DNA from: Macrocystis pyrifera
Lineage: Eukaryota > Sar > Phaeophyceae > Laminariales > Laminariaceae
Reading direction: 5' to 3'
Assembly: GCA_031763025.1 (NCBI GenBank)
Contig: JASSKH010000001.1
Coordinates: 6,116,024-6,180,023 of the forward strand
DNA length: 64,000 bases
Shown here: piece by piece, positions 17,101 to 20,100 of the stretch
How positions within the stretch are numbered: position 1 is the first letter of the stretch
Layout of the letters: every line of letters begins with the position of its first letter
Program-made: the position numbers and the translations under genes
The notes under the pieces: generated by a model
The model's input: only the letters and a program-made list of their open reading frames with translations
Databases searched by the model: none
Told to the model about the DNA's origin: nothing

Positions 17101-20100
17101 CCGTGAGCTATTTATGGACTGACAGTAGTAGTAAGTAGCAATGGCCTTCTCAGTGTTGTACAGTTAGTTATCGAATCGATCAACATATCGAGCGGCTTAA
17201 CTTGTGCCGCATCGTTTTTGTATGTCGCACCATCTCTCGACCGATCGATACCCGTCATACATCATACACATATGTACAACATTCAACGTGTTCTGTCACG
17301 AGTCTTTCTCCCGCCAGACTGTGTGGGAATGGTGTTGGTTATGGGTCCCCCACCCCCACCACCAAAAAAGTCTGTTTCTGTAGTACAAGTACTGTGCTGC
17401 TCTCGGTGAGAGCAACCTTCATCGCCATCGCCCGATGCCTCCTATCCCACGCGCGCGTCGTTCCCCCCCTCCCCCCCCCCCCTTCGTCCCGGCATTGTTG
17501 GGATACGAGGGTCTATGGCTATACGACTAAGGCCATGCATGACGTGAGTAACCCCCTCCCCCCCCCGCCTCCGCGTACACGTGATCCTCGTCGCCGACTC
17601 CACGATCCCAACACGCGTTTTTCCCCCCCCCCCCCCCCCCCCCCCCCCCCTCACTTGTCCTTTTTCCCTACAAATAACGTGTGGTCTGTGCCTGCAATGT
17701 GCCACTCGGTGCGAGCAGCCGCGGTAGCCCGCAAGGTGTACCTTCGCCCCGGGCGCGGCGTCGGCGGACTGAGCAAGGCTTTCGGCACGAAGGCGCGCAG
17801 GGGGACCATGACCAACACCCACAGGCCGGCTTCCACGGGAATCATCCGCCACGTGCTTCAGCAGCTCGAGTCGCTCAAGGTGAGGGACAGGTTGTTGGCT
17901 GAGTTTTGAACGGGTCGGGTTGGTTCGGGTCACGCATGACCCGACACGTGAGGATACAAATACTTTCTGACCCGACCCGTGAGTACCGGTGAACAGCCTT
18001 GTTTTTGTTGCCTCTTTTGTCGGTAGGGAAGTGCCATCCAAGCACGCGCGACGCGGCATAGCTGAGGGGGGGGGGGGGGGGTACTCATTATCATGCATGG
18101 CCGTAGTCGTTTGACCATGGACCCCTACATCCCTACAATGCCTGGACGGAGCATGTCGGGTTTTCACCGACCAGGCAGACATTGCTTGCACCAAGCGCGA
18201 AACGCCTTGAGGTGTTGGGCGAGTCGCATAAAGGGTGAGCTGCATCCTACTAAGAACCGTTTTAGAGGCGGATTTTCTTGCATATGGATGACAGCATCAA
18301 TGAATTGATTTAATGTCTGGTGTGCGGGGGGGAGGGGGGGGGGGGGGGGGGGGGGGGGGGGGGGGTGGGGGGGGGGGGGGGGGGGGGGGGGGGGGGGGGG
18401 GGGGGGGGGGGGGGGGGGTGGGGGGGGGGGGGGGGGGGGGGGGGGGGGGGGGGGGGGGGGGGGGGGGGGGGGGGGGGGGGGGGGGGGGGGGGGGGGGGGG
18501 GGGGGGGGGGGGGGGGGGGGGGGGGGGGGGGGGGGGGGGGGGGGAAGGATGTGGGGGGGGGGGGGGGGGGGGGGGGGAGGGGCGGCTCTGTCGATCTGTC
18601 GATCATTTTTATCTTGATGGCGCACTTCAACGTTGGTAATCGGTGTGGCTCGGCGGGAGTGCTGGCTGCCCCCTGCCTGCTCCGCTTGGTTGCCGTTGTG
18701 TGATGTTGAAAACCTATAGTGGATTATTGGTGGGTTGTTGTGTATCACCTTCGAAACGTTTTTTGCAATTGGCACATGATGCCTGCGATATTGTATGTCT
18801 TGAGGGTGGCGGCATTAGTGTAACGACTGTAAAACGCTTGCACCTTCGGTGACGGGGGTGCGTCGTGTATCGTCCATCCGTCTGTATCGTCTGCGATACT
18901 TTTTACAATGGTGAAAGGGTGGAGTAGTGGTTTTCGGGTGTTCCGCGGGGTTACGGTTTTTGTGTCGAGAAGGTGAGAACGCAAACGTATCGTCATACAA
19001 TTGACAATTGGAGCTCTTCCACCCACGGGCAGTTGGGTTCCATCTGAATACGAGCACCAGTTGCCCACCCACCTGACCCCCTTCATTGATGGTGTTTTGG
19101 GTTGATGGTTTGGAATGACCTCAATCCGAGCCTTGTGAAAGTTCGGAGGGAAAGGCGAGGATTTTACGCTGTCCGTGTCGTTTGTCGATTGGCCAGGGAG
19201 GAAGCGCAGTGAAGAAGTTTCTATGTGAATGACACAAAAAGGATTATGAAACAAGAACCTCCTACTCATTCTGAGCGCCTCTTTTTCCACTTGGAAATAA
19301 AACAAAAACACTATTGACACTCAATATTATTATGATGTAAATACGTTTCATTTGGGAGTCCAGGAGTCGATGCTTTGCTTGGCGTTAGTCGATCGGTCGG
19401 GGAGGAAGCGCAGTGAAGAAGTTTCTATGTGAGTGACAAAAAAGGATTATGAAACAAGAACCTCCTATTAATACTCATTCTGAACGTACTTTTATATCCA
19501 CCCGTACGTCGGACAAATAAAATAAACTAATCATTTGAACCGTTTTCAAGTTGAAAGGCCAGCAACTGGTGCTCTGCGCGGCGTTGGTTGATTGATCAGG
19601 GGGGAAGAAGGGCAGTGGATAAGTCTCTCATGTGAATTGCCAGAAAAATAATATTAATACGTAGAAGACCTCATTCTGCCCTGGCCCATTTACTATATAG
19701 GCCCACTAGAAAAGAGTAGTGCCTGTTTGCCGTAACCGTTCGCCCGGTAGAGAGACCTCAGTGGCGTGGGAGGCGTTTTTTTCTCGGGTTTTGCGTCTCC
19801 TGTACGGCTCGACGTGTTTGTTGCTTTTGTTCAGTTCGTCCGTCTCCTTTTTTTTCCAAGTTAGACAGTTGAGTCGGGGGCGCAGTGAAGAAGTTTCTAT
19901 GTGAATGACCGAAAAAGGATTATGAAACAAGAACCTCCTACTCATTCTGAGCGCCCCGGGAAAATGTCCGGAATGGATCTTTCAGAGCAGGAAGATAAGA
20001 TAGATGCCTGATGTGTATGATGTACAGCTCTAGTTGGCCGGTGAGATCCTTATAATCTGCATGATGTAGGTCGCATTTCTTGAGTTGGATCTGTACTCTA

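Follow-up and report, generated by a model that had tools for sequence, protein, structure and literature searches.

How an 8-bp palindrome, TATTAATA, came to be scattered through the genome of the giant kelp Macrocystis pyrifera is the question raised by the 64-kb stretch analysed here (the window, C189:6116024-6180023 of an assembly of 537,376,219 bp in 223 contigs, called G000 below). This 537-Mb, 223-contig assembly derives from a haploid female gametophyte, according to PMC10498591. The window also contains a kelch protein (91% identity across 81% of its length with one from Ectocarpus sp. CCAP 1310/34) and very long poly-G/poly-C tracts (for example 18319-18577 and 50324-50571), beside which several copies of a dispersed repeat start.

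The palindrome occurs 18 times in the window. An earlier note had listed 17 of these sites, each at its correct coordinate; the extra one (46761) lies inside what that note called family E. It had also put the chance expectation at about one in 64 kb, in line with the 0.79 obtained from 100 dinucleotide shuffles, none of which reached 18, and the 0.32 given by an order-2 Markov model. A further 200 kb of this chromosome, sampled as twenty 10-kb stretches and making up with the window an extended set of 264 kb, held 38 copies against 1.31 expected. There TATTAATA was the most enriched 8-mer among those with at least 30 counts on both strands, simple repeats filtered, while its reversed word was found 6 times against 2.7 expected, both strands counted. 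Across the 537 Mb, a count that the earlier note had proposed, TATTAATA was found 94,130 times and the reversed word 7,522 times, a 12.5-fold excess and about one copy per 5.7 kb. We propose, with a probability of about 0.9, that TATTAATA is the excision footprint of a miniature inverted-repeat transposable element (MITE) of about 105 bp, family A, or of family A together with relatives that have TTA ends. The 17 sites outside family E, with no strand assigned and identified by word match unless stated otherwise, are as follows:

15232-15239, probable TATTAATA scar
15487-15494, probable scar
19466-19473, scar in snoRNA unit 2, splitting the guide beside box D (units 1 and 4 and the snoZ105 consensus have TA)
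19652-19659, probable scar in the diverged snoRNA-like unit 3, spanned by no sibling
22725-22732, probable scar, C..G flanks
23691-23698, probable scar
30878-30885, probable scar
33567-33574, probable scar
35550-35557, probable scar, C..G flanks
38401-38408, probable scar
39659-39666, probable scar
41827-41834, probable scar
47312-47319, probable scar
49621-49628, probable scar, C..G flanks
51395-51402, probable scar
62832-62839, probable scar in a dispersed repeat
63377-63384, probable scar, C..G flanks

For the site at 62832, the paralog at 22951-23043 reads CTAG in a local alignment; the multiple alignment places the region elsewhere, and sibling scoring gave a deletion.

Family A is a short, non-coding, palindromic element with ends TTACGGGGG...CCCCCGTAA and the terminal inverted repeat (TIR) TTACGGGGGNCCATAGT. 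A profile built from 12 window copies detected 45 copies in the 264 kb. Fourteen of them lie in the window, where 13 had been claimed, the profile total including a weak stretch at 26779-26846. The window copies, with no strand assigned and identified from sequence unless stated otherwise, are:

4318-4425, family A MITE, CTA...TAG, ends TTACGGGGG...CCCCCGTAA
20369-20466, family A MITE, diverged
26779-26846, weak, shortened family A-like stretch (profile E 7.9e-4)
27695-27799, family A MITE
28128-28232, family A MITE
31866-31970, family A MITE, followed by TATTAATG, possibly a decayed scar
32362-32453, family A MITE with one decayed end (profile)
39014-39119, family A MITE
41190-41294, family A MITE, CTA...TAG
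52508-52612, family A MITE, CTA...TAG
55925-56029, family A MITE, CTA...TAG
57016-57121, family A MITE
60663-60767, family A MITE
62949-63053, family A MITE, CTA...TAG, inside a dispersed repeat (sequence and sibling alignments)

The pre-insertion state of the copy at 62949 is ambiguous, since the sibling at 56531-56625 reads CCTAGATC and that at 25905-26024 reads CTATTGTAGATC. TA is found on both sides of 29 of the 45 copies, and the whole genome contains 66,605 instances of the family A end with its target site duplication (TSD), TATTACGGGGG, compared with 212 of the reversed word. By extrapolation from the 264 kb, the genome would hold about 90,000 family A copies, similar to the excess of scars. 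The earlier note had read an excess of scars over copies as a sign of very active past excision. The excess itself is weak (17 to 14 in the window; 56, one of them in family E, to 45 in the 264 kb); that much excision took place in the past is nevertheless supported, because decayed scars escape the count.

The most local evidence comes from an array in which scarred and unscarred repeat units lie side by side. Its two unscarred units are:

19204-19274, plus strand, snoRNA array unit 1, empty TA site (Rfam snoZ105, 30.9 bits, E 0.007, below the gathering score)
19880-19950, plus strand, snoRNA array unit 4, empty TA site (Rfam snoZ105, 30.9 bits, and snoZ162, 30.6 bits, below the gathering score)

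Units 1 and 4 read CCTCC-TA-CTCATTCTGA and unit 2 reads CCTCC-TATTAATA-CTCATTCTGA, exactly as had been described, and the difference is a clean gain of 6 bp. Both TA units match the box C/D snoRNA models snoZ105/snoZ162 with E values of 0.001-0.01, under the Rfam gathering score; a search at gathering level gave no match. The array (19204-19950) looks like a box C/D snoRNA cluster similar to snoZ105/snoZ162, the former of which we take to be a plant snoRNA family. TA is most likely the ancestral state here and the scar in unit 2 derived, since the TA units carry ACCUCCUACUCAUUCUGA, exactly as the snoZ105 consensus does. In unit 2 the scar interrupts the guide, probably disabling it.

Orthologous sequences give the same picture. 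A scan of GTDB contigs for MITE ends yielded seven loci, and family A is carried by L005-L008 (JALZVB010000211, JALZVY010000069, JALZWC010000131 and JALZWD010000061), contigs of published bacterial metagenome-assembled genomes that look like wholly or partly misbinned brown-algal DNA. Loci L001-L004 and L009 match the end pattern, yet visual inspection of their printed flanks showed no family A element, and later analyses omitted them. L006 and L008 were compared with the kelp assembly. L008 matches G000:C218:14460932-14464065 with 80-90% identity in its long blocks and 70% in a short block, and these values make it probable that it comes from a related species; L006 matches G000:C223:9859881-9861786.

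Scarred sites faced TA in these comparisons. At L008:1019, GATAC-TATTAATA-GTAAT corresponds to GATAC-TA-GTAAT in G000:C218, with the caveat that the site sits at the edge of another repeat that itself adjoins TA. That multi-copy repeat (L008:1027-2230) is also present at dozens of places in G000, its left end often adjoining TA with differing flanks, and may itself be a TA-targeting element. L006:1540 reads GTGC-TATTAATA-GCAG where G000:C223 has GTGT-TA-GATG; these flanks are poorer and were counted as poor under a stricter flank rule. At L008:3251, CGC-TATTATTAATAATA-GTCAG corresponds to CGC-TA-GTCAG. The 14-bp palindrome TATTATTAATAATA is TAT-TATTAATA-ATA, absent from the 264 kb, and at this site (3248-3261) it has the look of a nested scar, the form expected if an element had inserted and excised once more at the central TA.

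Occupied sites likewise faced a single TA, in agreement with the claim that family A inserts at TA and duplicates it. The best empty-site case is L006:1420, where GCACTAG-TA[E]TA-GTACCTGTG, with E the element, faces GCACTCG-TA-GTACCTGTG in G000 and both flanks are well aligned. The copy at L008:425 faces CC-TA-GTCG, and one G000 copy faces GGA-TA-GTGG in L006. The copy at L006:560 faces TAGTAGGTGG, and its boundary is less exact because the site lies within a TAG-rich run. A doubtful case is L006:1607, an element absent from G000 whose right junction cannot be aligned. More weakly, the region near L008:2414 fits a scar common to the two algae (CTATTAATAG / CTATTAATTG) and, facing TA in G000, an element that adjoins TATTAATA. 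The earlier note had proposed a search for clean, occupied and scarred alleles at one site. TA was found opposite a scar, opposite the nested-scar palindrome and opposite a resident MITE, but none of the sites compared was seen in all three states. A candidate case of four states at one repeat site (L008/L031/L048/L052) was dropped, the left flank being common to L031 only.

Two TATTAATA words, offset by 6 bp, overlap at G000:C3:109582-109595. Nested and overlapping scars suggest re-insertion into scars, and at least three family A copies in the 264 kb adjoin a full TATTAATA (L014:3368, L027:9499 and L024:7011).

Paralogous sites were surveyed for 79 TATTAATA sites from all kept loci, all in different contexts. 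A paralog could be aligned for 19, and 7 of these had at least one TA sibling; at three, dinucleotides other than TA were read and all further alignments were poor or gapped, and the remaining nine, L006:1540 among them, gave poor, deleted or inserted alignments only. Control words in the same survey (36 sites, a small set) had siblings at 11 sites and a TA sibling at 2 of them. TA was read in 58 of 68 aligned sibling stretches for L033:1942 and in 62 of 67 for L051:713 (35 and 22 TA, respectively, under stricter flank rules); because this stretch is internally repeated and TAC/TGC-rich, these siblings come from fewer copies, in 27 loci each. For L037:1406 and L055:166, most siblings read CA (20 of 23) and GA (19 of 23), respectively, instead of TA, which requires one to assume an earlier substitution. 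All four of these sites lie in a multi-copy repeat. A clean 6-bp gain also separates L013:6804 from the copy next to it.

An exact TA with a 6-bp gap was found for 2 of 7 TATTAATA sites versus 2 of 798 other TA-NNNN-TA sites. The commonest word among 6-bp gains from TA to TAxTA was TATTAATA (6 sites, in several of which the aligned partner is not exactly TA), followed by the microsatellite word TACTACTA (4 sites). Shorter gain words were TACTA (13 sites), TAATA (12) and TACGTA (12), and TACAGCAGTA was seen at 6 sites. Where the comparison is clear, a scar adds exactly 6 bp to a TA site.

Scars and family A copies have one common target signature, C-TA-G. In the 264 kb, C..G flanks surround 16 of the 56 TATTAATA sites and 12 of the 29 copies bordered by TA at both ends, compared with 3.4% of 14,826 TA sites. 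The word CTATTAATAG was seen 16 times with 0.07 expected, and other C-TA-x-TA-G words (at least 3 seen, x up to 4 bases) reached 10-fold at most; a longer C..G word, CTACTCCTAATAG, counts against the scar reading, with 5 seen and <0.01 expected. Taken together, the orthologs, the TA siblings of paralogs, the polarity given by snoZ105 and the common C-TA-G preference support the excision-scar reading with which the earlier note had begun.

The scars might stem mainly from other elements with TTA ends, either an autonomous partner or sister MITE families, and not from family A itself. We think this unlikely. It would fit with the fact that no scar has element sequence past TTA, but among exact 9-nt TIRs in the 264 kb the predominant pair with TTA ends is TTACGGGGG (14 pairs), the family A end is abundant throughout the genome, and the C-TA-G preference is common to family A and the scars.

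Palindromes are unstable, and a palindromic MITE could be lost with no transposase, by hairpin cleavage or replication slippage that fuses the short TA repeats of TATTA...TAATA; with this 2-bp overlap the product would again be TATTAATA. This route should, however, often leave TATTA or TAATA, whose counts in the 264 kb are 645 against 310 expected overall and 19 against 13.6 with C..G flanks, a restored TA being invisible. The presence of copies differs between related algae, and therefore insertion or loss continued after their split. We judge loss of this kind to be quite improbable as the main source of the scars.

We also seriously considered that TATTAATA is a preferred target, in which an element ending in CGGGGG...CCCCCG would duplicate the TA at its centre and give TAT-TA-[element]-TA-ATA, the TA being that of TATTAATA. 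The sequence of occupied sites fits target and scar equally and exactly, and the few copies that adjoin a full TATTAATA can be cited in favour. The orthologous empty sites (L008:425, L006:1420, L006:560 and that of the G000 copy), however, are a single TA with neither TATTA nor AATA; the genome-wide excess and the 6-bp gains at TA would also go unexplained. We set this possibility aside as very unlikely because the empty orthologs read TA. That TATTAATA is a functional motif under selection, such as a factor-binding site, would agree with its strong enrichment across diverse contexts but hardly with its appearance as a 6-bp gain at TA, even within a snoRNA guide and repeat copies, and we give this almost no credence.

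If TATTAATA is an excision scar, its form suggests how the gap is closed. The earlier note had supposed that two terminal bases of each end are left behind. The product, TA-TT-AA-TA, agrees with this, but the event may be better put as two TTA overhangs overlapping by TA. After excision each flank would keep a 3-nt 3' overhang, 5'-TTA, as mariner-type enzymes leave it. The last two bases of TTA are self-complementary, and the overhangs from either side could therefore pair by 2 bp; one base would then be filled in on each side, and the join would be TA-T-TA-A-TA, that is, TATTAATA. Such pairing and fill-in would explain why one word dominates. A scar still contains TA sites and could be hit by elements again; scars beside an element and nested scars would arise in this way. 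Tc1/mariner elements are known to cut with 2- or 3-nt 3' overhangs (PMC3878927 and PMC4561436); the overhang length and the enzyme in kelp we infer. The same overhangs are expected to yield TATAATA/TATTATA, which is found 72 times against 26 expected overall in the 264 kb but only 3 against 1.1 in C..G context. For the transposase itself, PF13358 (DDE_3) had no match in the genome and matched 3 of 14 control genomes; PF01359 (Transposase_1) had no match in the genome or in any control genome.

Among known systems, the closest are the Stowaway-like MITEs of Triticeae and rice and their Tc1/mariner relatives (PMC1925063, PMC4561436 and PMC4423477), with which family A shares the TA target, the 2-bp TSD and the form of a short palindromic MITE. 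Their footprints, as described there, retain the TSDs and 1-4 terminal bases, and clean, occupied and footprint sites are known. The same holds for family A, where the sequence record has TA-TT-AA-TA opposite TA in orthologs and siblings. The TIRs differ, CTCCCTCC in Stowaway versus TTACGGGGG in family A, which thus departs from the Stowaway consensus sensu stricto. In the same sources, five putative footprints are reported at one intron site in Triticeae (PMC1925063), and rice footprints are complex, perfect ones possibly being rare (PMC4423477). Whereas the footprints in those plants are varied, kelp has one dominant palindromic word at about 90,000 sites in one genome.

The mariner element Hsmar1 has the terminal bases TTA, and thus both these ends and the TA target in common with family A. 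Its footprint, T(T/A)A (Table 1 of PMC3878927), implies a 7-bp word with mismatch pairing; in kelp the 8-bp word, with shifted but perfect TA pairing, dominates in C..G context, and the 7-bp excess is smaller than the 8-bp one. Sleeping Beauty and Frog Prince leave C(A/T)GTA (same table). There a short overhang sets the scar, as we propose for kelp; the terminal bases and the scar are different, and the footprints are known from assays, those of kelp from a genome-wide record. Two other classes were rejected. PiggyBac-type elements use a TTAA target and excise precisely, whereas the kelp target is TA and a 6-bp scar stays. PIF/Harbinger (Tourist) elements make a 3-bp TWA direct duplication and mostly excise precisely, whereas the flanks TTA...TAA are not a direct repeat and the scar is TATTAATA. 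Among the papers listed by searches of open-licence PMC text, none dealt with this footprint or with such scars in brown algae.

A second word, TACC[A/T]GGTA (TACCWGGTA), may be the scar of another TA element. It occurs 121,279 times genome-wide against 2,421 for the reversed word, with 11 copies in the window and 53 in the 264 kb, and the 30 contexts listed out of these 53 look unrelated. We examined 69 sites (68 distinct). A sibling could be aligned for 13, among which two represent a single place covered by overlapping loci. At two sites the word is found within a family A copy, and most of the siblings read TA (43 of 64 for L008:2762 and 43 of 73 for L057:3019), none being scored as the motif. 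At the remaining alignable sites the comparison was not clean. No multi-copy partner with CCA ends emerged among exact 9-nt TIR pairs at most 800 bp apart in the 264 kb. We put forward tentatively, and at less than even odds, a wider picture in which about 200,000 footprints fall into essentially two words, TATTAATA and TACC[A/T]GGTA, left by two TA-targeting groups with self-annealing overhangs, near-deterministic repair, re-used scars and an enzyme outside the standard Tc1/mariner transposase families.

Excisions of DNA transposons are in most cases difficult to tally, since repair leaves sites that vary and decay. If our reading is true, one recognisable word records tens of thousands of excisions in kelp, and past jumps can be read from the genome through scarred, occupied and untouched sites in related sequences. 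A single assembly would then allow the excision rate, the reuse of targets and the preference in end joining to be counted, and these could be tested in populations. The scars act as small insertions too, one of them within a snoRNA guide; they could be used as polymorphic markers in this ecologically important alga.
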